A stretch of DNA of 34,639 bases from a virus. Below, in pieces: positions 3,034 through 34,639 of the stretch. The stretch spans positions 1-34,639 of IMG/VR virus record IMGVR_UViG_3300033149_003079; one strand, given 5' to 3'. The notes below the pieces were generated by a model. That model made no database searches. It saw only the letters and a program-made list of their open reading frames with translations, and had not been told where the DNA came from. The translations under genes were made by a program, and so were the position numbers. Position 1 is the stretch's first letter; each line of letters begins with the position of its first letter.

Positions 3034-4122
3034 ATGAAAATGACTATTCCTGTCAAACTGAAGACTACCTCTGCCCATGTAAGCCGCCTCTTGGCGACAA
3101 TGGATACTTTTAATGAGATTTGCAATGGTCTTAGCGACGTTTGTTTCCATGAAGGAATTTTCAACAAATTTGCAATCCAGAAACTTTTGTATCACCCGAT
3201 ACGCTCTTGCTATGATATTCCGGCACAATTGGTCGTTAGAGCGATATCGAAAGTTTCGAATTCTTATAAAAAAAACAATAAAACTCTTTGTTGGTTTAAA
3301 CCTAGAGGAGCGATTACCTACGACACTAGGGTACTGAGGTGGAAAGAGAATGAAGTTTCCATAGCGACTATTACGGGGCGAATAACTATTCCTTTTGTCT
3401 GTAGTGAAAAGCAAAAAGAATCCCTCAGATTTCAGGAAGGAGAGACCGACCTCATTTACCGGAATGGCACTTTTTTCCTTCATACCACTTGCGAGATTAA
3501 AGAAACGCTTCCTATCGAAGCAAAAAGCTATCTCGGCGTTGACATGGGTATTACAAACATCGCCTATGACAGTAAAGGAAATCAATATTCTGGAGAGCAT
3601 GTTACTGTTCTTAGAAAGAGACATGTTAGATTGAGGAAAAAACTTCAGTCGAAAGGGACAAAATCCGCCAAGAGACTTCTCAAAAAAAGAAACAAAAAAG
3701 AGCAAAGATTTGCAAAAGACATTAACCACCAAATAAGTAAAAAAATCATAGAGACTGCTAAAAGGCACTCTATTGGCATTTCGCTTGAGGACCTCAAGGG
3801 CATTTGTCAAAGAGTAACGGTTAGAAAAAAGCAGCGGTATTCTCTGCATTCTTGGTCGTTCTACGACCTTAAACAAAAGATACTTTATAAAGCAAGGCTT
3901 GTAGGCGTTCCAGTTATTTTGGTTGACCCCAAATATACTTCTCAGGAATGTTCTAAGTGTGGTTATATCAAAAAAAGCAATCGCAAATCTCAATCTAAAT
4001 TCTCCTGTAGTTCTTGTGGTCATGCCGCCCATGCTGACTACAACGCTGCTTGTGTTATCTCAAGCAGGGCCGCAGTCAATCGGCCATACATTTCTGGTCC
4101 GCAACAAGCAGCCAAGGAATAA
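3034..4122 (+). CDS. tnpB: TnpB, IS200/IS605-family RNA-guided nuclease homologue
   Basis: A 362-residue TnpB/OrfB protein, close to the usual 350-400. RuvC-I is YLGVDMGITN (catalytic D170), RuvC-II is ISLEDLKG (E252), and RuvC-III is HADYNAA (D335). A zinc ribbon with CxxC pairs at C306/C309 and C325/C328 is inserted before RuvC-III. All three acidic residues and four cysteines are present, so the protein should be catalytically competent. The N-terminal 160 residues form the beta-barrel/REC-like part, and a basic helical region follows RuvC-I (195-245). No Shine-Dalgarno is visible. Characterised relatives are RNA-guided DNA endonucleases that help their element persist. In a phage it may also serve homing or competition, which is inference. 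Confidence 0.9.
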   Translation: MKMTIPVKLKTTSAHVSRLLATMDTFNEICNGLSDVCFHEGIFNKFAIQKLLYHPIRSCYDIPAQLVVRAISKVSNSYKKNNKTLCWFKPRGAITYDTRVLRWKENEVSIATITGRITIPFVCSEKQKESLRFQEGETDLIYRNGTFFLHTTCEIKETLPIEAKSYLGVDMGITNIAYDSKGNQYSGEHVTVLRKRHVRLRKKLQSKGTKSAKRLLKKRNKKEQRFAKDINHQISKKIIETAKRHSIGISLEDLKGICQRVTVRKKQRYSLHSWSFYDLKQKILYKARLVGVPVILVDPKYTSQECSKCGYIKKSNRKSQSKFSCSSCGHAAHADYNAACVISSRAAVNRPYISGPQQAAKE

Positions 4123-4125
4123 GCC

Positions 4126-4362
4126 TTAATTGGGCGATATTGATGAATCATCCCCCTTTTGCGATTGACGGATCATCCCCCTCAATTCTTCAATCTGCGC
4201 ACTATGTGCGTCCTGCAATTTCACCGATACTTTCCCCTCGACCGCATCAATGAATTCAATGAATTTTCTCTTAGCTTCCTTGTTAGCCTCACTCTTTTTG
4301 AGCCACGCCATTATCACCATAGAAAGCATTGGAATTAAAAACTCAACTATCTTGTTCCACAC
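4126..4362 (-). CDS. small membrane-anchored protein with helical tail
   Basis: About 78 residues: one N-terminal transmembrane segment (IVEFLIPMLSMVIMAW) followed by a charged, probably coiled-coil cytoplasmic or periplasmic tail. I chose the GTG at 4362 because a GGGGG(TG) sequence lies six bases before it. An in-frame GTG at 4371 lacks spacing for a ribosome binding site. The gene overlaps the end of csrA by about 20 bp and is the last gene of the Fis-lipoprotein-CsrA cassette. Its stop lies 4 bp from the tnpB stop on the other strand, so the C terminus (GDDSSISPN) may have been altered by the tnpB insertion. The topology would suit a holin or spanin accessory, but function is unknown. Confidence 0.55.
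   Translation of the reverse strand: MWNKIVEFLIPMLSMVIMAWLKKSEANKEAKRKFIEFIDAVEGKVSVKLQDAHSAQIEELRGMIRQSQKGDDSSISPN
4147..4182. repeat. 11-bp direct repeat near the tnpB right end
   Basis: ATCATCCCCCT occurs at 4147-4157 and again at 4172-4182, inside the 3' end of the small membrane protein gene and 25 bp after the tnpB stop. It may be a local duplication connected with the insertion, or chance in C-rich DNA. Confidence 0.35.
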
Positions 4363-4540
4363 GAATAGCACCCCCGTTTTGTCGTAACATTTTCTTGATT
4401 GTTTCTTCCCTTAGTATCCTGGTCCCCTTTGGAGCATCAAACCCGACTTTAATATAAGACTCGCCGACTTTAAGCACCTCCAGAATAATATCTTGCCCAA
4501 TCGAAACCCTTGAGTTTTTCTTCAAGTGCAATACTAGCAT
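4343..4540 (-). CDS. csrA: CsrA/RsmA-family post-transcriptional regulator
   Basis: A 65-residue CsrA homologue, an RNA-binding dimer that recognises GGA motifs in hairpin loops and leaders and blocks or stabilises mRNAs. The alignment with E. coli CsrA is ungapped from residue 1: MLVL at the N terminus (L4 kept), IG at 14-15, VLKVG in the central strand, the conserved GFDAPK (33-38), and the RNA-contacting R44-E45-E46 (ILREE). The other main RNA-contact residue, R6, is replaced by L6, although K7 and K8 are adjacent. GAGGGAG precedes the ATG. The gene starts one base after the lipoprotein stop and overlaps the next gene, so it is co-expressed in a four-gene cassette. CsrA genes are normally chromosomal, so carriage by a phage suggests interference with host regulation. 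Confidence 0.88.
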   Translation of the reverse strand: MLVLHLKKNSRVSIGQDIILEVLKVGESYIKVGFDAPKGTRILREETIKKMLRQNGGAIRVEQDS

Positions 4541-4541
4541 T

Positions 4542-5255
4542 CTACTCCCTCACGAGGTTTCCCTCATGCCCGTACGTTGTTAGCTTATGTATTCGGCGTG
4601 GCTCTTTTATCTCCATAAAAGTCGCAACGCAAAGTCCTTTAGTGATTTCAAATTCAAAAGTTTTCCCTCTTTTCTTTTTAAACTTACAATGCTCATTTTT
4701 TTTGAATGAAACAAAGACATTATTATCAAAAGTTATAGATTGCTTGAGTCCTTCCCCTTCCTGGCAAACGGATACGCCATCCCATGACTTTGAGGTTCCC
4801 CCACAAACAACAAAAGCGGGTAAGACTAGGTACTTATCTTTAATAGCAATATGCCCCAATGAGTGTCTACCCTTGACGTCAAACGCTCTAAGCTCAACCG
4901 GGCATCCTCTCCGCTCTATAATGTTTGGGCGATAATTGATTTTTACTTTATGGCGATTAAGTCCGCGTTTTGCATTCTCGATAGCAATTTCTCGGGAGCA
5001 TGTTTTGAAAGTGAAATAATTAAACCGCCCCTTAGACTCAAGCTCGATCGTGTAGAGATCTTTTTGCGGTAAAACAATCATTCCAATCGCAGAATGATTT
5101 TTATTCTTGATTCGCATATCCATTTTATAATGTAGCGCGGGATCCATTTCGGTTGTCGGCAATGAGCACGACTGAGAGAGCAAAATCATAAGTATTAAAA
5201 TTAGAAAAAATGCCGCTGCTCGATAAACCATCATAAAAATACTTGGCGTTTTCAT
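4542..5255 (-). CDS. predicted lipoprotein of unknown function
   Basis: A 237-residue protein with a type II signal peptide: basic start (MKTPS), a long hydrophobic stretch, and the lipobox LSQSC, giving lipidation at about C30. The mature part is beta-rich with several cysteines and many lysines and matches no family I know. ATG at 5255 follows GGGAGAGAG and overlaps the stop of the upstream Fis-like gene (TAATG). A longer frame starting at 5285 lacks such a site. It is followed one base later by csrA. Surface-located phage lipoproteins often act in superinfection exclusion or lysogenic conversion, which would fit a cargo gene, but nothing in the sequence proves this. Confidence 0.7.
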   Translation of the reverse strand: MKTPSIFMMVYRAAAFFLILILMILLSQSCSLPTTEMDPALHYKMDMRIKNKNHSAIGMIVLPQKDLYTIELESKGRFNYFTFKTCSREIAIENAKRGLNRHKVKINYRPNIIERRGCPVELRAFDVKGRHSLGHIAIKDKYLVLPAFVVCGGTSKSWDGVSVCQEGEGLKQSITFDNNVFVSFKKNEHCKFKKKRGKTFEFEITKGLCVATFMEIKEPRRIHKLTTYGHEGNLVRE

Positions 5256-5491
5256 TATCTCTCTCCCTTGATTCTCCCGTGCCAATCATACTTATTGTTA
5301 TCTATTTCCCGGATCCCGTAAAGCTTCATGCGACTACGCACGGTCCTGCCGCTGATACCTAGAAACCTAGCGGCTTGGTCTTGCGTTCCGAATTTGTTTA
5401 ATGCGTAAAGGAGAGGGAGGGCTTCCAGTTTAGAGAATCGCTGTATTCCGGTGCAATCGTCGTCGATGATAATAATCATTGATTTACTCAC
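5255..5491 (-). CDS. small Fis-type HTH DNA-binding protein
   Basis: A 78-residue protein whose residues about 24-60 form a Fis/NtrC C-terminal type helix-turn-helix (HTH_8): ALPLLYALNKFGTQDQAARF followed by LGISGRTVRSRMKLYGI. In the family the same layout ends with LGISRRTLYRKLKKYGI. There is no AAA+ or receiver domain, so it is the DNA-binding module alone. The GTG start at 5491 has little ribosome binding site; an ATG at 5479 is an alternative. Its stop overlaps the lipoprotein ATG. It is the first gene of the cassette and is a good candidate for its transcription regulator, or for a nucleoid-type or host-directed regulator. Confidence 0.7.
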   Translation of the reverse strand: MSKSMIIIIDDDCTGIQRFSKLEALPLLYALNKFGTQDQAARFLGISGRTVRSRMKLYGIREIDNNKYDWHGRIKGER

Positions 5492-5563: not shown

Positions 5564-5595
5564 GGGCACGGATTACTCCTCCGTGCCCTTTTTTT
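5564..5595 (+). terminator. strong intrinsic terminator, plus-strand orientation
   Basis: A perfect 9-bp stem (GGGCACGGA/TCCGTGCCC) with a 7-base loop is followed at once by T7. This is textbook structure for transcription moving rightwards, although the genes on both sides are on the minus strand. Read leftwards, the same stem is followed only by ACTAATTAATC, a weaker terminator that could still separate the tail/lysis genes from the CsrA cassette. Confidence 0.75.
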
Positions 5596-5815
5596 ATTCG
5601 TCGCCTTTTCCTGCCAGAGATTTTAATATATTCGTAAATAATTGAAGAATGCTATTCGACTTAAGACTAGGAATAACCGCAAGGCATTCCGAAATTGCAA
5701 GTAGCGCCGTCACTATTGCCGTGAAATAAACTGCCCAGCTTGCGCTCTTTGGTGCTTCTGCTCCAAACACAGTAAAGCTGAATAAACAGAACAAAAATAA
5801 AAATAAAACCTTCAC
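5594..5815 (-). CDS. small membrane protein, holin-like candidate
   Basis: A 73-residue protein with an N-terminal signal-like hydrophobic segment (LFLFLFCLFSFTVFGAEA), a second hydrophobic segment (WAVYFTAIVTALLAISECLA) and a basic tail. The arrangement, signal peptide plus one mature membrane helix or two helices, and its place right after the tail fibre genes suit a holin or small envelope protein. The C-terminal pattern IPSLKSNSILQLFTNILKSL resembles small phage membrane proteins I have seen, but I cannot name a family. It ends at the plus-strand terminator. The ribosome binding site is AGGGAGGAATTGTG just before the ATG. Confidence 0.6.
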   Translation of the reverse strand: MKVLFLFLFCLFSFTVFGAEAPKSASWAVYFTAIVTALLAISECLAVIPSLKSNSILQLFTNILKSLAGKGDE

Positions 5816-10278: not shown

Positions 10279-12435
10279 CTACAAAGTTGATATGCCTAAT
10301 CGCTGTCTCTCAATTAATTTACTTTCAATTAGTTCAAAAGCATTGTCCGCGAACCCCACGATAACTTCCATGACTCCGCCGCCGCCGTTCGCAGTGACTT
10401 TTTCAGCTTCTCTTTTTGCTCTAACCGATCCGATCACTTCGTTAAAATTACTTTTCGGCGCGATTATTTCGCCCCGCTGTGCTAGTATTCCTACCGAATC
10501 TTGGCCAGGAATGCCGCCGGTTATTTCCCCGCCTTTAGCAAATCCCTGAATAGCAGTAGAGGCAATAAGCCCAACTTGCGCAGCACCTGCAGCCCCAATA
10601 ATACCGGCCAATGGGATCCCAACGGGACCTAGTGCCAAGGCGCTTGCAACACCTTGCGCCGTCGAAACAATAGCGCCCGCAATGGCAGCTGATTTCTGTA
10701 AAAGAAATAATGCTTTGTTTCCTTGTCTGCCGTTTTGCTCCAATAAGGCTTGTAAGTTATTTGCAAGTGATAGAGTAGCATTGGCATAACTTCCGGCCAA
10801 CTGTAATTGTGCTTGTTGCCTTGCCCTATCAGCTTTTACTTGTTGGTCTTTGAAAGTGTTTAGCTTTTTGGCATTGTCTACTGTCCGTTGGTCCGCCTCT
10901 CTTTCTAATTGGCTTCGTGCCTCTCCTAATTTTTTCTGTCTGACCAGTTCGTCTAATTTTTCTTTTTTATCAATTTCTTTTGTTAATTTTATTCGCTTAT
11001 TAATTAGGGCTATTCTTTCTTTTCCGATCGAAGTTTCTAGGGCCAAATTAGTGGCAGCCAGTTCCTTGGTATTGCCGGAAAATTCAGCTTCAATTTGTGC
11101 TAAAAGCTCATTTTCTAATCTTTTTTGCTCTAGCTTTCTGCCGGTATCACTCTCCCGAAATTCCTTTTCCTCTTCAGCTACTTTATCCCGTTGAGACTTA
11201 CTAATTTCGACAAAATTGGCTTGCTCGTTAAGTAAATCATCGAATGTAGCAACGACCGCATCCTTATCTTGTTCAATAAGTTCCGGTCGAATAAGGCTAA
11301 CGGGCTCGATACTTTTTCTTTCTTCATCCCATTTCTTTGTAGCATCGCTAAATTTGACTAATGCCACGGTCGCCAATGCGAAACCACTAGCTACCGCCGC
11401 CATAGGGAGACTAACCGCTCCAAGCGCGACTCCTGCCGCCGCCGCAATAGGGGCAAGCGCCGGTGCTGCAATATTAAAGGCAACAATCGCCGCCGTCGCT
11501 CCCGTGATACCTAGGGCTATTGCCGAAGCACCTGCTGCAAATTTAACAAGATTCTCATTGTCTTGAGCCGCTATAAGGATTTCATTAATCCCCGACGCAA
11601 CGTCCTTAGCAAGGGGAAGAAATGTTTGCCCTAATTGTGCAAGCAATAAATCGAAGTTTCCCTCTAGTGTACTAATTTGCCCGCTTAATGTTTTAGATTG
11701 TTTGGCCATACCGTCGAAGGCTTGACCGCCTTTTTGTGCTATTGAGGCAAAAGCCTTTTCAAAAGTCTCAAAATCTACCTTGCCCGCTGACACAGCGTCT
11801 CGTACTGCAGTCTCGGCAATGCCCATTGTTTTCGCAATCGCTGGACCAATAGGAATAGCTCTTTCTTGAAATTGTAATAATCTCTCGCCGGTAAGTTTTC
11901 CCGCTGCGGAAACTTGCCCAAAAATTAATGCAATTTCACCAATTGATGTACCCGACGCGGCTGCAATATCGCCAAGAAATTGTAACTTATCGCTAACGAC
12001 TCCAGCCTCAAAACCAAAACCTAATAGCTTTTTGGCGGCGTCGGTAACTTCATCTAATTGAAAGGGAGTTTGAGCAGAAAAAGCCGCTAAGTCTTTTATG
12101 GTTTCTTTTGCTACTTCCGCACTACCGATTAAAACTTCGAATTGAGTCGCCACGGCTTCAAAGTCGGCGGCTTTTGATATTGTCTTACTTATGCCAACCG
12201 CTAAGGCAGTAAAGGCAACGCCCGAGGCAATGCCAATTTTCTTCAACTTTATGGCCGCGTCTTCAGCCTCTTTCGCAAGCCGTTTTAATTCTTTTGATGC
12301 CGCTTTATCCGCATCCTTAGCAAGCTTATTAATTGCCTTGTCAGCGTCTTTAGCTTCTTTCTCAAGCTTCTTTAAAGCCTTATCAGCCTCTTTTGTATCA
12401 ACACTTATCCCGACATTAACTTTTGGATCTGCCAT
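10279..12435 (-). CDS. tail tape measure protein
   Basis: A 718-residue tape measure protein that sets tail length; at about 0.15 nm per residue it predicts a tail of roughly 105-110 nm. It contains the tape-measure N-terminal domain at about 80-270, with the characteristic QTPFQLDEVTDAAKKLLGFG, LTGERLLQFQERAIPIG and ISTLEGNFDLLLAQLGQ segments. Coiled-coil lysine/glutamate-rich regions occupy 1-70 and 385-540. Hydrophobic alanine-rich segments (300-370 and 575-640) could interact with membrane. GAGGAAAA precedes the ATG. Its start overlaps the end of the frameshifted tail chaperone, the classic arrangement. Confidence 0.93.
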   Translation of the reverse strand: MADPKVNVGISVDTKEADKALKKLEKEAKDADKAINKLAKDADKAASKELKRLAKEAEDAAIKLKKIGIASGVAFTALAVGISKTISKAADFEAVATQFEVLIGSAEVAKETIKDLAAFSAQTPFQLDEVTDAAKKLLGFGFEAGVVSDKLQFLGDIAAASGTSIGEIALIFGQVSAAGKLTGERLLQFQERAIPIGPAIAKTMGIAETAVRDAVSAGKVDFETFEKAFASIAQKGGQAFDGMAKQSKTLSGQISTLEGNFDLLLAQLGQTFLPLAKDVASGINEILIAAQDNENLVKFAAGASAIALGITGATAAIVAFNIAAPALAPIAAAAGVALGAVSLPMAAVASGFALATVALVKFSDATKKWDEERKSIEPVSLIRPELIEQDKDAVVATFDDLLNEQANFVEISKSQRDKVAEEEKEFRESDTGRKLEQKRLENELLAQIEAEFSGNTKELAATNLALETSIGKERIALINKRIKLTKEIDKKEKLDELVRQKKLGEARSQLEREADQRTVDNAKKLNTFKDQQVKADRARQQAQLQLAGSYANATLSLANNLQALLEQNGRQGNKALFLLQKSAAIAGAIVSTAQGVASALALGPVGIPLAGIIGAAGAAQVGLIASTAIQGFAKGGEITGGIPGQDSVGILAQRGEIIAPKSNFNEVIGSVRAKREAEKVTANGGGGVMEVIVGFADNAFELIESKLIERQRLGISTL

Positions 12436-16759: not shown

Positions 16760-16794
16760 ATTGACTTCCTCCGAAATATGCCTATGCTGTGCCC

Positions 16795-17289
16795 ATGGTA
16801 GAAATATTTAAACCCATAAAAGGGTTCCCTAAATACAATGTATCTAATACCGGGAAAGTGACGGGCGGCTCCGGGAAGACGCTTAAGCAAAGGCTTCACC
16901 GGGGGTACGACAGAAAAAGGCTTTACAATGGCTCCACTGCGAAGGACTTCCTTGTGCACCGACTCGTATACGAAGCGTTTAAATGTCCTATCAAGAAAGG
17001 TTTTCAGATAAACCATATGGACGGAGACAAGCTTAACAATAAGATTGATAATCTTGAGAGCGTGACCCAATCTGAAAACATGAAGCATGCGTTTAGCATA
17101 GGTCTTCAAGTGGCAAAGAAAGGTATCGACTCTCACTTCTGTAAGCTCACCGAGAACGAAGTGCGAGAAATAAGAATACTTGCCAGGAACACCGCTCTCC
17201 GTCAACGGGAAATCGCAGAAATTTTTGGTGTTTCCCAAGGAAGAATTCATTCTATAGTAAAACACAAAGACTGGAAACATCTCAAATAA
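16795..17289 (+). CDS. NUMOD4-HNH homing endonuclease, opposite strand
   Basis: About 164 residues. The N-terminal NUMOD4 DNA-binding motif (IFKPIKGFPKYNVSNTGKVT) is followed by the HNH nuclease core INHMDGDKLNNKIDNLESVT (about 72-91 from this start; catalytic His and Asn) and a C-terminal helix-turn-helix (LRQREIAEIFGVSQGRIHSI). Freestanding homing endonucleases with this layout are common in phages. It is inserted between the capsid-operon terminator and the next structural gene, oriented against them, and has no clear ribosome binding site. I prefer ATG 16795 to the upstream GTG at 16789. It shares its architecture with the HNH at 23264-23782. Confidence 0.85.
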   Translation: MVEIFKPIKGFPKYNVSNTGKVTGGSGKTLKQRLHRGYDRKRLYNGSTAKDFLVHRLVYEAFKCPIKKGFQINHMDGDKLNNKIDNLESVTQSENMKHAFSIGLQVAKKGIDSHFCKLTENEVREIRILARNTALRQREIAEIFGVSQGRIHSIVKHKDWKHLK

Positions 17290-18048: not shown

Positions 18049-18909
18049 TTAAACAATGATTGAGATCACTTGCTTGTTATCCAGTTGAACAGCACCTAAA
18101 GGAAAGTCGACACTCATTTTGTAGCCAAATTGGTTGTTAACATGAGTATCTGAGATCTTAAATCTTGGCGCGCCTAGAACCACTTTCATGAATTCTTTCG
18201 TAAAAGCAAATCCAGTATCCGTATCTAAGGAATTATCCTCTAAAATATTAAAATTCATCCTCTTAAGCATGAACCGTCCGTCAAGCATTGGAGAATGAGG
18301 AATACCCATTGTGTTGGCTGCAGAAACAGTAGTGTCGTCCAAAAGATCACTGAAAAATGTTGGGTCATTGAACAAATACCATGGAGTTTGATTTCCCCAT
18401 TTTGCTTTAGCTGCAAGTGTTCTAATTTGACTTAGAGTCGCTAAGTTAAAATCGCCACCGGCAGAAATTCCTGCGTGTACTGGTGCTGCTGCTGAAGGAC
18501 TAATCAAAGATTTAACCCAGTCATTTGCTTGCTCTCTAACGTCAGATAGCATTGCCTCTCTTATCTCTGAGTCTTCTTGCTCAAGTTGAGACATAACCAC
18601 CGCTAGGTCCTCAAACTCGAAAGCAGAAACGCAACGCTTGTTTACCTGAAGGTCAACGTTAGTTGTGCTTAAAATATTTGTTGTAAAAGTGTCCGCATCC
18701 GTTCCAATTGTCTTAATTGTAGATGTCGGCTTATTGATTCTCTTAATCTTTAGAGTATCGCCGCCCTTCACTCTATCAATTGTATAGTTCGGATCGTGTA
18801 AAATTCCCGGCCATAGCGTATTTTCTCTTAACTCTTTAGTGAAAAGAGGCGACCAAAAAGTTTGGACCAGTTCCAGCGTGTCGGCAATATTAAAAGTAGT
18901 TGTTCCCAT
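18049..18909 (-). CDS. major capsid protein
   Basis: A 286-residue coat protein immediately downstream of the scaffold (one-base spacing), which fixes its identity by gene order. It has an N-terminal helix (ADTLELVQTFWSPLFTKELR), an extended E-loop-like segment (IDRVKGGDTLKIKRINKPTS), a helix with acidic residues (EFEDLAVVMSQLEQEDSEIR), and a C-terminal beta domain (FAFTKEFMKVVLGAPRFKIS ... FGYKMSVDFPLGAVQLDNKQ). This is the layout of a non-cleaved HK97-fold coat protein such as the P22-coat-like group. No protease gene is present, consistent with a separate scaffold. Confidence 0.82.
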   Translation of the reverse strand: MGTTTFNIADTLELVQTFWSPLFTKELRENTLWPGILHDPNYTIDRVKGGDTLKIKRINKPTSTIKTIGTDADTFTTNILSTTNVDLQVNKRCVSAFEFEDLAVVMSQLEQEDSEIREAMLSDVREQANDWVKSLISPSAAAPVHAGISAGGDFNLATLSQIRTLAAKAKWGNQTPWYLFNDPTFFSDLLDDTTVSAANTMGIPHSPMLDGRFMLKRMNFNILEDNSLDTDTGFAFTKEFMKVVLGAPRFKISDTHVNNQFGYKMSVDFPLGAVQLDNKQVISIIV

Positions 18910-21988: not shown

Positions 21989-23251
21989 TTAATGAAATGT
22001 CGATTTCTTTTTCTTCACGAGCGGGTAAAGGAACCAACAAAGGTAAGAGAGTGAATCGACTAAATGCGATAAACTCGGATCTGTCTTTTGATTAAGCTGT
22101 CCATGCTTATCCCAGACCAATTGAGTGAGATCTCTTATTAATTTTTTGCAGCGGGGGTGTATTTTGATGAGCCCCAAAGTGAAACATCTGTTAAGGTTTG
22201 CAATTTTGTCAATTACTGCAGGATTAGTCTTATATCTTACATCAAAAGAAGCGTCTTTCAAAATAAGGACATTTGATTTACCCGTTGTACTCCTATTCCT
22301 CCCCGTCGAGTCGCAAACTACCGACGCTCCCTTCACACCTTTGCGCTTTAATGCATCAACTTTCTTGTAAGTGTCGCCCGCCAACTGGATTTCATCCCAA
22401 ACATAAAGCCCATGGGCATGCTGACTTGTAAGCACATCGGAATTATACATGATATTAAAGTCAGATCCAACCCAGTCGGTGCCCTCAAGCCTTTCCGCCT
22501 GTTCTGATACATGTTCGCCTTTATTGAATGCGTAGACGGCTGCCCCTGAATTATCGCTATCATATTCCCCTTTCAAGAAACGAAGCTGTTCTTTCTTGGG
22601 AAGCTTTTTAAGCATTTTAATGTAATGCTCGTCGATATTTTCTAAATTTGACTCAGGGTTGATTTTTATTGATAGAAAATCTTTTGCTTTATCAGTATCA
22701 AAAGCCTCACCGTCAATAGGGTCAATACCTTGTTCGAATGCTTGGTAATAAGCGCTTGTTGTAGTGGTAGGGTTTTGCGTATAGAAAACCTTTTTAGCCA
22801 GTATATTCTTTTCAGCGAGGCGCGTTTTCAGCCGCTCGACTGCTAGCCATGGGACTTGGTTGCACTCCTCAACTAAAATAGTTGAGAATTCAAGCCCCAA
22901 AAGCCTTTCCAGTTTGTCCTTATCATCAAGACCAGCACAGCGTATCCTCGACCCGTTTGGGAAATTCATTATATAATTTGTTCGGTCTGGCTTCACTGGC
23001 AAGTCAGGGAACGCTATCGCTAAAACCTTTGGGAGTGTATCCATCCATATAGAATTTTTTACCGAATTAAATGTATTTCTAACGATTATATGGCTTGATT
23101 TGCATTTGCATGCTCTAACGATGAGAATAAAGACAGCGATAAATGTTTTTCCCGACCTACTTCCTCCATATAGGATGATGTGTATGGCCGCCGAAGCGAC
23201 AATTAAAGAAATTGCTAACATTTGCGCGGAAGTTTTTTTAAACTCAATCAC
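21989..23251 (-). CDS. terL: terminase large subunit
   Basis: A 420-residue packaging motor. Its ATPase has Walker A GGSRSGKT (29-36), Walker B ILVEE (125-129) and a TQNP coupling motif (158-161). The C-terminal RNase H-like nuclease has acidic residues in GSDFN (D264), VVCDSTG (D314) and HLVDSLSY (D399). The length is normal for the PBSX/SPP1-like terminases. The GTG start has no good Shine-Dalgarno and follows the HNH stop by 12 bp, so insertion of the HNH gene between terS and terL may have cost terL its original translation signal. Confidence 0.93.
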   Translation of the reverse strand: MIEFKKTSAQMLAISLIVASAAIHIILYGGSRSGKTFIAVFILIVRACKCKSSHIIVRNTFNSVKNSIWMDTLPKVLAIAFPDLPVKPDRTNYIMNFPNGSRIRCAGLDDKDKLERLLGLEFSTILVEECNQVPWLAVERLKTRLAEKNILAKKVFYTQNPTTTTSAYYQAFEQGIDPIDGEAFDTDKAKDFLSIKINPESNLENIDEHYIKMLKKLPKKEQLRFLKGEYDSDNSGAAVYAFNKGEHVSEQAERLEGTDWVGSDFNIMYNSDVLTSQHAHGLYVWDEIQLAGDTYKKVDALKRKGVKGASVVCDSTGRNRSTTGKSNVLILKDASFDVRYKTNPAVIDKIANLNRCFTLGLIKIHPRCKKLIRDLTQLVWDKHGQLNQKTDPSLSHLVDSLSYLCWFLYPLVKKKKSTFH

Positions 23252-23263
23252 AGTAGCTAACCA

Positions 23264-23782
23264 CTAGACCACGTGAGTCCATCGCGCTCCCGTTTTTATT
23301 TGAGAAATTGTGTTCTGCTTTACACCATAAGCCAGTCCAATGGCTGTATTAGTTTCCCCCGACTTAATGCGCGCTCTTATTTCTCTTACTTTTACATCAT
23401 TGAGTTTCGCCTGAGAGTTACTCACGCCCTTTCTTTTTACTAGTCCGTTCTTGAACGCGTGCATTGTGTTTTGTTTGGCTGTCACCCACTGCAGGTTAGA
23501 GGCTCGATTGTTGAGCTTATCTCCATCGATATGATTTACTTCGGGGAGGTTTTCAGTGTTGTTGATAAAAGTAACAGCAACAAGCCTATTCAGTCTCCAT
23601 GCTTTTTGTATCTTCTGAAATCTCAACGCAACAAGCATGTATCCCCTGCAATTGCCTGGCCTCATATCTCTCCATACACCCAAGCGCGATGACCCCCTTA
23701 TTTGTCTCGTTTGGACTCTGCCCATATTTGACACCCGATGGTTTGGGTAACCCTTTATTCCTGCCCAGATCTCTTTTCCCAT
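23264..23782 (-). CDS. NUMOD4-HNH endonuclease between terS and terL
   Basis: 172 residues. Domains are NUMOD4 (EIWAGIKGYPNHRVSNMGRV), HNH core VNHIDGDKLNNRASNLQWVT (about 82-101 from the ATG), and a C-terminal helix-turn-helix (GETNTAIGLAYGVKQNTISQ). ATG 23782 overlaps the terS stop (TGATG) and has AGGAG upstream, so it is translated with terS. HNH proteins beside terminase can be part of cos cleavage (HK97 gp74), but the NUMOD4 and HTH domains make a homing endonuclease more likely. It is homologous in layout to the HNH at 16795-17289. Confidence 0.86.
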   Translation of the reverse strand: MGKEIWAGIKGYPNHRVSNMGRVQTRQIRGSSRLGVWRDMRPGNCRGYMLVALRFQKIQKAWRLNRLVAVTFINNTENLPEVNHIDGDKLNNRASNLQWVTAKQNTMHAFKNGLVKRKGVSNSQAKLNDVKVREIRARIKSGETNTAIGLAYGVKQNTISQIKTGARWTHVV

Positions 23783-24162
23783 CAAAGCTCCTTGTCCTCG
23801 CTGCTTATTTTTATTTCTCCTTTCATACTAACATCGTTTTCCACTTTGTCTGCCCATCCTGCATAATTTTTTAAGCAAAATATAAGCATTGTCTTGTTCC
23901 CGCCCTTTGCCATATTGATAGCTTTTTGCACTAGCGTTAGCCGAACGTTAGCCATCTTTTTGTCGCGATAGGCCGAAAATGTTAGTCCGCTTTTCTCTTT
24001 GATCCGCATTTGGACCAAGTCTTCGGAGCACTTCATAATTTCCGACGTGTCAGAAAGTGAAGGCTTGAATTGTAAAACCTTGTCTAGAATTTCCCAGTCA
24101 AACGGTTTCTTGTTGGCCAAAAATACCCCCTTGAATTTCTTGCCATGAATATTCTTTTCCAT
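23782..24162 (-). CDS. terS: terminase small subunit candidate
   Basis: A 126-residue DNA-recognition subunit. A helical, HTH-like N terminus (LDKVLQFKPSLSDTSEIMKC) is followed by the signature typical of phage small terminases near 78-105: LVQKAINMAKGGNKTMLIFC then LKNYAGWADKVE. It lies one gene from terL. The start overlaps the 3' end of the methyltransferase gene by 65 bp and lacks a ribosome binding site, so expression depends on coupling. ATG 24162 is preferred to the adjacent GTG at 24165. Confidence 0.78.
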   Translation of the reverse strand: MEKNIHGKKFKGVFLANKKPFDWEILDKVLQFKPSLSDTSEIMKCSEDLVQMRIKEKSGLTFSAYRDKKMANVRLTLVQKAINMAKGGNKTMLIFCLKNYAGWADKVENDVSMKGEIKISSEDKEL

Positions 24163-25357
24163 CACGGATTAATTTTACATTGCTATCGCTGCCCGTATAA
24201 TCGATAAACCTTTTAGTGATTACATCACAGTATTTTTCGTCTAGCTCCATACCGTAGCATTTGCGTTTTGTTTTTTCGCAAGCGATTAGTGTCGAACCGC
24301 TACCGAGAAATAAATCCAGGACCTTTGCGCCCACTGATGACGTTTTGTCGATAGCTTCTTCACTTAATGCTACTGGCTTTTGCGTTGGATGCTTGTAAGC
24401 GCTTGCACCGTCTTTGCCAATTTTCCAAATGCTACCGATTCGCTTTCCTTTCAGGGTGGCACCTCTATGCCAAACAAGCGCAGTCTCGTAATCGGAGGAG
24501 AATGTTTTCTTTAAATCGCCAATACCCCCACCACCCTTAAACCATATAACCTGATTTGTAGGGTACCCAAGAGGCGTAAGGTTTTCGATCCATTTAGTGA
24601 GCACCTTCCAGCTAGTCCAAACAAAAACCCAACCCTTGCTGTATTGATTAATAACGGGATAAATATCTAGAATGTTTTCGTCATTCCTTAGTACTTCGAA
24701 TTTTTGGGACTTTGTCCTCATGTTGGATTGGTAATTCACGCCATAAGGCGGGTCAGTCAAAACCATATCTGCCATACACCCGTCCATTAGATCGCTCACA
24801 TCGCCAAAGTCAGTACTGTCACCGCAAAGCAACCTATGCCCGCCCAATAGCCATAAATCCCCTTTCTCCGTGACTACATTACCCTCATCGACATCAGGGA
24901 CGTCGTCTTCTTTTTCCTCCTTGTCCTCATCTATTTCGATAGGCATTTCAAGATCGGGCATCCCAAACAACTCAAGATCAAGCTTAATATCCATATCCTT
25001 AATCTGAGCAATCATTTTCTCTTTATCATGCTCAGCAAGTTCAGCTAAATGATTATCACTTTCCAAAAAAGCATACTCCTGCGCTTCGTTTTCAAAATCC
25101 TGATAATCAACTGGGTATTCCGTCCATCTATTTTTAAGCGCTGCTAACCTACGCCCATGCCCAGCAACAATAAACCCACTTAGATTAGACACGATAATCG
25201 GGTGCCTTATCCCCTGAAACTTCATTATCTTTGCGAGTAATTCAATTTGCTTTTCTGGATGATTATTGGTGTTTTTTGGATGCGGGATTAATGCTTCAAT
25301 CCCTACTATTTTCTTAAAGCTACATTTAATAAAATCTAAAATACTTTTTATGCCCAT
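24098..25357 (-). CDS. ParB-like domain fused to DNA methyltransferase
   Basis: 419 residues. N-terminal ParB/Srx-type domain with GHGRR at 66-70 (AGHGRRLAALK), an acidic linker (145-160), then an amino-type (N6-adenine or N4-cytosine) DNA methyltransferase with DPPY at 202-205, HPTQKP at 323-328 and the SAM-binding FLGSGS at 350-355. The motif order (catalytic DPPY before FxGxGS) is beta class. It would methylate phage DNA against host restriction or mark packaging sites. GAGGAAG lies before ATG 25357, which overlaps the preceding stop (TAATG). The fusion next to terS is a recurring phage arrangement. Confidence 0.9.
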   Translation of the reverse strand: MGIKSILDFIKCSFKKIVGIEALIPHPKNTNNHPEKQIELLAKIMKFQGIRHPIIVSNLSGFIVAGHGRRLAALKNRWTEYPVDYQDFENEAQEYAFLESDNHLAELAEHDKEKMIAQIKDMDIKLDLELFGMPDLEMPIEIDEDKEEKEDDVPDVDEGNVVTEKGDLWLLGGHRLLCGDSTDFGDVSDLMDGCMADMVLTDPPYGVNYQSNMRTKSQKFEVLRNDENILDIYPVINQYSKGWVFVWTSWKVLTKWIENLTPLGYPTNQVIWFKGGGGIGDLKKTFSSDYETALVWHRGATLKGKRIGSIWKIGKDGASAYKHPTQKPVALSEEAIDKTSSVGAKVLDLFLGSGSTLIACEKTKRKCYGMELDEKYCDVITKRFIDYTGSDSNVKLIRDGKEYSWQEIQGGIFGQQETV

Positions 25358-25605
25358 TACTTCCTCCATACATAATTCATCCTAACCCTCTCAACCCAAG
25401 CCTCTCGCTCAACCTCGCTGGCTTGCCTAAAATCGAACGTGTCAACAAGCTTCAAAAGCCTTGTCTTACATACCCGCTCAAATGAGTCGTAGACTACACC
25501 TCGGCGGCTTTGCATCGCTTCAATTTTGTCGATCCATTTCTGCCGGTCGTAAGTTATTTTGTTTTTATTGTGCAATTCTGCTAAAGATCTTAATTCGTGA
25601 TTCAT
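25357..25605 (-). CDS. hypothetical charged protein
   Basis: An 82-residue, strongly charged, helical protein, with aromatic residues near the C terminus (WVERVRMNYVWRK). The ATG follows GGGGAGGGCA. It overlaps the methyltransferase start by one base, so the two are co-translated. The helical, basic nature would fit a small DNA-binding partner, but no family is recognised. Confidence 0.55.
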   Translation of the reverse strand: MNHELRSLAELHNKNKITYDRQKWIDKIEAMQSRRGVVYDSFERVCKTRLLKLVDTFDFRQASEVEREAWVERVRMNYVWRK

Positions 25606-34384: not shown

Positions 34385-34639
34385 TTTTCTCCGCCTCTTC
34401 CATCGCTTCCTTCATGGACACAAACAGTTCGGCCAAAATATCAGCCCCATGCTCCATACCATTTCTATACATAACAACGCTTGCTTTCTTTATCCCTTTG
34501 GGCGTTCTTCCTAACGCAGTTATTTGATATTCGCCAACCCCTTTCTCCATAGCTTTCTCAGAGTCTAAAATTGCGGTTCGAATCGATTGCCTCATTAGTG
34601 TGGGCAGTTCCAGTTTTTCTAGCGTTTTCATCAGTTCGT
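34359..34639 (-). CDS. 3' part of the small protein split by the contig ends
   Basis: Continuation of the gene that starts at 68 on the other end. Within this window alone it would begin at ATG 34631 without a good ribosome binding site. The joined protein is 94 residues, helical and charged (LRQ/SIRTAIL; ITALGRTPKGIKKASVVMYR; ADILAELFVSMKEAMEEAEK), and ends TTPSQPNQ. It is convergent with, and overlaps by 26 bp, the plus-strand gene at 34193-34384. Function unknown. Confidence 0.7.
   Translation of the reverse strand, partial: ELMKTLEKLELPTLMRQSIRTAILDSEKAMEKGVGEYQITALGRTPKGIKKASVVMYRNGMEHGADILAELFVSMKEAMEEAEKTTPSQPNQ
34576..34639. repeat. 64-bp terminal direct repeat, right copy
   Basis: Identical to bases 1-64. 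See the left copy: the repeat marks circular or terminally redundant DNA, giving a unique length of 34,575 bp. Confidence 0.9.

Follow-up and report, generated by a model that had tools for sequence, protein, structure and literature searches.

Phage-borne CsrA proteins are already known. A survey of phage csrA genes from 2020 comprised 30 phages including DC1, Bcep22, BcepIL02, PEp14 and SopranoGao (PMC7366521), and in our searches at least 91 GenBank phage records showed a CsrA match with E. coli CsrA as query and 64, overlapping with that set, with BcepIL02 gp49. The canonical phage CsrAs (phrog_9500; Pseudomonas F116-like, Vibrio and Escherichia PTXU04/Pondi phages) are small proteins, the members read keeping R6. 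Proteins of the Lessievirus or Bcep22 type (phrog_8397), represented by BcepIL02 gp49 and JC1 gp47, which match this profile strongly, carry leucine or isoleucine at position 6, keep the arginine R44, are devoid of E45-E46 and are encoded next to the major capsid gene. In each of the Pseudomonas phages PA8, E220, Epa33 and vB_PaeP-F1Pa, a canonical CsrA-family gene and a second one of the BcepIL02 type apparently coexist at different positions. Plaques of E. coli phage PTXU04 become smaller when its csrA homologue is knocked down (PMC11879866). RsmQ, the CsrA homologue encoded by plasmid pQBR103, has been tested experimentally; it binds to GGA sequences and forms heterodimers with the host Rsm proteins (PMC9928087).

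The residues concerned here have been characterized in several family members. RNA binding depends most strongly on R44, which outweighs R6, and L4 matters as well (PMC7652899); in E. coli CsrA, V40 and I47 also add to RNA binding (PMC6692469). In RsmA, a salt bridge across the subunit interface links R6 to E46 (PMC3791407; there as Arg8 and Glu64 of RsmN), and in the complex of RsmE with RsmZ SL1 a looped-out base is hydrogen-bonded by Arg6 and Glu46 of the two subunits (PMC4005645). The exchange R6A weakens CsrA of both E. coli and C. jejuni, R6A and E46A being among the worst mutants of the latter (PMC6692469). A spontaneous R6L exchange in V. fischeri CsrA increased luminescence about 10-fold and restored siderophore production only to the wild-type level (PMC4573307, which names R6L twice and calls both residues charged, wrong for leucine). 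These differing outcomes indicate a target-selective partial loss of function.

A csrA-Family Gene in an Unclassified Phage Genome

The gene described here is located on IMG/VR virus record IMGVR_UViG_3300033149_003079, the whole length of which (34,639 bases) will be referred to as the window. The window begins and ends with the same 64 bases (1-64 and 34576-34639), and this terminal direct repeat is expected for a complete, circularly closed assembly; the phage is unclassified and its genome complete in appearance. Nearly all structural genes are carried by the minus strand (Table 1). The phage had been described from sequence inspection as lytic-looking, which is not contradicted, as no integrase was detected among the part of the window's open reading frames that was scanned. 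Searching for the host with the terminase yielded distant phages only (Leptospira phage LE1 at ~28%, others lower), and the capsid protein, one tail-region protein and one other protein gave no matches. The N-terminal stretch of the DNA methylase encoded upstream of the terminase genes resembles ParB by eye.

Table 1: Features of the window, with the basis of each assignment or its location.
Feature	Position	Strand	Basis or remark
Lytic transglycosylase (SLT), probable endolysin	2446-2946	minus	SLT 24.9 bits, cut-off 21.3
Stand-alone IS605-type TnpB (OrfB/Cas12f-like)	3034-4122	plus	convergent with the csrA gene string
81-aa ORF with N-terminal hydrophobic (membrane-like) segment	4126-4371	minus	no family above cut-off
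csrA-family gene, 65 aa	4343-4540	minus	Pfam CsrA; AlphaFold; PDB fold matches
csrA ribosome-binding region, AGGGAGTAGA	4541-4550	minus	holds AGGGA
7-bp hairpin CAUGAGG-GAAA-CCUCGUG	4551-4568	minus	just upstream of the csrA Shine-Dalgarno sequence
Putative lipoprotein with signal peptide (LLSQSC)	4542-5255	minus	no Pfam or PHROG match
Fis-type (HTH_8) helix-turn-helix protein	5255-5491	minus	HTH_8 25.6 bits, cut-off 22
Holin-like membrane protein	5594-5815	minus	weak match to phrog_526 (holin), E=0.006
Small protein with one hydrophobic segment	5825-6022	minus	between tail and holin-like genes
Tape measure	10279-12435	minus	PHROGs
HNH/NUMOD4 homing-endonuclease-like gene	16789-17289	plus	amid virion genes
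Major head protein	18049-18909	minus	PHROGs
Terminase	21989-23251	minus	PHROGs
HNH/NUMOD4 homing-endonuclease-like gene	23264-23785	minus	adjoins terminase
Phage DNA methylase	24098-25369	minus	N6_N4_Mtase match; just upstream of terminase genes

The csrA-family gene starts with an ATG at position 4540 and ends with a stop codon at 4343-4345 on the minus strand, a strand that the sequence-only reading had left out. Its product (MLVLHLKKNSRVSIGQDIILEVLKVGESYIKVGFDAPKGTRILREETIKKMLRQNGGAIRVEQDS) had been proposed there to align with CsrA without gaps over 65 residues, and this was confirmed. The protein scored 50.6 bits against Pfam PF02599 (cut-off 27, E=1.8e-13), the profile search thus placing it in the CsrA family, and a sequence search of the PDB returned B. 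subtilis CsrA and RsmE. The AlphaFold monomer model, based on a 56-row alignment, has a mean pLDDT of 89.7 with a core of about 97 and shows the five strands plus helix of the CsrA fold; its top 15 Foldseek matches in the PDB are all CsrA, RsmA or RsmE, 14 of them at probability 1.00, with TM-scores (target-normalised) of up to 0.89. Against the NCBIfam equivalog TIGR00202 the protein reached 43.9 bits, below the cut-off of 70.1, and thus represents a diverged family member and not a csrA orthologue. Compared with known CsrAs, it does not exceed about 40% identity. The best PHROG was phrog_9500, and phrog_8397 was not matched at E<=0.01.

Conserved and Altered Residues

The window protein retains L2, L4, K7, G33, A36-P37-K38, R44, E45 and E46, and thereby the RNA-binding residues L4 and R44 of the family, and position 6 is leucine as previously noted, so that E46 is present without its R6 partner for the intersubunit salt bridge. 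In PF02599 this bridge is commonly conserved but not strictly defining, since further members also lack R6. The window protein shares the gapless alignment, the predicted fold, L4, APK, R44 and E46 with E. coli CsrA and P. protegens RsmE, but differs from CsrA, RsmA and RsmE by L6, S10, T40, L43 and T47 at conserved positions (the exchanges E10S, V40T, H43L and I47T among others). Each of H5, L6, S10, S13, Q16, E21, E27, R41 and T47 was found in none of 109 distinct viral CsrAs. Judged by this alignment, R6 is just one among several departures. The pattern by which these 109 proteins were drawn demands R44, E46, L2, L4, A36, P37 and K38; evidence therefore comes from the presence of these residues in the window protein and not from their frequency of 100% in the comparison set.

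The description of R6 as an RNA contact holds insofar as it touches RNA in the RsmE-SL1 complex (PMC4005645), but its main part is that of salt-bridge partner of E46' (PMC3791407). A changed specificity, which had been suggested, is plausible given that R6A or R6L impairs CsrA of E. coli, C. jejuni and V. fischeri (PMC6692469, PMC4573307). Since R44 matters more than R6 and is intact, a weakened or re-tuned binder is predicted rather than a dead one, and the RNA affinity or target choice of the window protein is probably weakened or re-tuned and not abolished. The same retention of the decisive residue R44, the loss of which inactivates CsrA, makes the suggested dominant-negative role the weaker idea. 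According to this explanation, heterodimers with host CsrA carrying one weak face, or sequestration of host Csr sRNAs, would derepress host targets. A precedent is provided by RsmQ, which forms heterodimers with the Rsm proteins of its host and also binds RsmY/Z (PMC9928087), and loss of R6 weakens repression in several CsrAs (PMC4573307, PMC6692469); mixing with host CsrA is nevertheless uncertain with the R6-E46' pair missing and identity so low, and we regard such a role as decidedly unlikely.

Occurrence of CsrA Proteins without R6

The frequency of R6 loss was examined with a DNA pattern in which M1, L2, L4, A36-P37-K38, R44 and E46 were fixed and position 6 was free. This pattern occurred in at least 120 contigs of IMG/VR, and all 109 distinct CsrAs among the matches listed carry R6. 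Restricting position 6 to codons with a second base other than G, which removes all arginine codons and is blind to G, W, C and AGY-Ser codons, left no match in 2.9 million viral contigs, the record of the window being left out. Both matches of a narrow R6L scan of viral contigs were chance hits and no CsrA. The R6L scan of 84,980 GTDB genomes yielded 11 matches, two of them CsrA-like (Neptunomonas japonica and an Oceanospirillaceae MAG); within the phylum of Neptunomonas the signature was detected in 111 of 398 genomes, the sole non-R6 match being the seed genome, which had been picked for it. R6 loss is thus very rare in phage and bacterial CsrAs of the form covered by these scans, which demand gapless spacing, an ATG start and fixed codons of the L2/L4 type. 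The Oceanospirillaceae MAG contains eight CsrA-family matches in a genome of 3.4 Mb, several of them strongly diverged.

With a looser pattern and among diverged GenBank phages, further CsrA-like proteins without R6 were found, namely L150/L152 (M6) and L153 (V6) in IMG/VR and those of gut phage MT837633 (L6) and the Burkholderia phages BcepIL02 (L6) and JC1 (I6). All of these retain the arginine R44 and have also lost E46. The Oceanospirillaceae paralogue (L6) likewise has a hydrophobic position 6, keeps R44 and lacks E46, whereas the Neptunomonas paralogue (L6) keeps both; the genomic contexts of L150/L152, L153, MT837633 and these two paralogues differ from that of the window gene. Among the proteins seen, only the window and Neptunomonas proteins combine R6 loss with E45-E46. 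The rare part is therefore the loss of R6 while retaining R44 and E46, which is not unique, and the earlier verdict "unusual rather than unprecedented" was borne out. In a tree, the R6-less CsrAs offered too few columns to be grouped; at minimum four changes are needed, of which the supported branches force two. The window protein was paired with L150 (98/82), a meeting of long branches for which the program warns that the join may be false. The CsrA-like proteins of Vibrio phages D93 (L142:1324-1611) and vB_VpM-pA2SJ1 (L144:1318-1605), annotated as hypothetical, keep R6, and their N-terminal half is interrupted by a long insertion, possibly an RsmN-like rearrangement.

No close relative of the window protein was detected by a short-peptide search of IMG/VR viral contigs and the 84,980 genomes, and tblastn against GenBank phages yielded weak partial matches only; the protein may be drifting. 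No csrA was detected either in five terminase-related phage contigs, mostly fragments; it therefore does not belong to the core genes of this group and is probably accessory. The absence from these relatives, the long branch and the many altered conserved positions would fit a recently acquired accessory gene that is decaying and has little function. However, the reading frame is intact with a good Shine-Dalgarno sequence and tight spacing to its neighbours, and core strand positions, R44 and E46 are retained in a fold predicted with high confidence. We consider decay unlikely.

Gene Neighborhood

The gene is part of the string holin-like gene, HTH_8 gene, lipoprotein gene, csrA, 81-aa membrane-like ORF and transglycosylase gene (Table 1). 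The stop codon of the lipoprotein gene directly upstream lies one base ahead of the csrA start, the 3′ end of csrA is overlapped by the 81-aa ORF, and the transglycosylase gene follows downstream past the TnpB gene. A segment homologous to the holin-like gene is present in the csrA-less relative G001, as is a protein similar in size and place to the small hydrophobic one. With holin-like, HTH_8 and SLT neighbours, csrA thus lies in the lysis region among the late genes. The TnpB gene separates the transglycosylase gene from the other genes of this region; no TnpA was seen.

This position bears on the possibility that the window protein corresponds to the head-module CsrA-like proteins of Lessievirus, with a role in the virion that is structural or in packaging and not translational. 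BcepIL02 gp49 and JC1 gp47 share the absence of R6 and the arginine R44 with the window protein, and JC1 gp47 was detected in virions by one peptide (PMC9144972). The window gene, however, is far from the major capsid gene, its product retains the E45-E46 lost in the Lessievirus group, and its best profile is phrog_9500 and not phrog_8397, which renders a virion role highly improbable. Genomic contexts of the canonical phage CsrAs also differ from that of the window gene.

The csrA Leader

The Shine-Dalgarno sequence of csrA is itself an AGGGA (4546-4550), a site of the AnGGA type, and a second AGGGA at 4560-4564 lies partly in the stem of the adjacent hairpin. The hairpin gave z-scores of -1.8 and -2.1, with 6 and 4 of 200 shuffles folding equally well. 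One CsrA dimer can bridge sites 10-63 nt apart (PMC7652899), and the spacing of 14 nt between the two AGGGA sites falls inside this range. The arrangement of hairpin and Shine-Dalgarno site resembles glgC, except that here the GGA at 4560-4564 is partly paired, and base-pairing of a site usually lowers affinity (PMC7652899). Two or more AnGGA motifs occur in 4 of 61 window leaders, that of csrA among them; these counts use approximate start codons (the lipoprotein, for instance, starts at 5255 and not at 5237). The leader is a candidate autoregulatory site, put forward as a testable hypothesis only. The proposal that phage leaders in general are targets found no support, since AnGGA in leaders with a Shine-Dalgarno-like core was not enriched (16 of 44 in the window versus 11 of 21 in G001, which has no csrA); it is the leader of csrA itself that stands out. 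An Rfam scan of the window returned nothing, hence no known Csr-type decoy RNA.

Proposed Function

Taken together, we consider it somewhat more probable than not that the gene encodes a genuine, fast-diverged translational regulator of the CsrA family in the lysis region of a tailed phage, with lowered or re-tuned RNA binding. This view draws on results shown by the analysis, namely family placement and predicted fold, the residues present, where the gene lies, how rarely R6 is lost and the leader motif; against it count the several altered conserved positions, the lack of close relatives, the failure to find csrA in related contigs, the pairing of the site at 4560-4564 and the missing AnGGA enrichment. 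The protein would very probably fold as an interlocked CsrA dimer, presumably binding GGA-containing RNA via L4 of strand 1 and R44 of the partner's strand 5. Loss of R6 would remove the R6-E46' salt bridge and one side-chain contact, and as a consequence affinity or target choice would be lowered or re-tuned rather than abolished. Its likely job would be to tune translation of selected messages late in infection. The most plausible target would be csrA's own operon, whose ribosome-binding site carries the two AGGGA sites and the hairpin; in addition or instead, the protein would act on host messages, competing for RNA with the CsrA of the host. A bolder version, which we regard as very doubtful, is that phages repeatedly evolved R6-less CsrAs free of the E46' bridge, which dimerise apart from host CsrA and recognise other GGA sites, and that here an autoregulated operon times the lysis genes.

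The window gene is a divergent further member of the phage-borne CsrAs with a rare substitution. Like RsmQ it is a CsrA homologue on a mobile element, but it is known from sequence and a predicted fold. In the literature searched, an infection phenotype turned up for a single phage CsrA, that of PTXU04. The loss of R6 across several phage lineages represents a small, checkable comparative observation. A natural protein lacking R6 and retaining R44 and E46 offers a clean test of the job of the R6-E46' pair, be it dimer exchange or RNA choice, and could show whether phages use the loss of R6 to insulate their regulator from that of the host.
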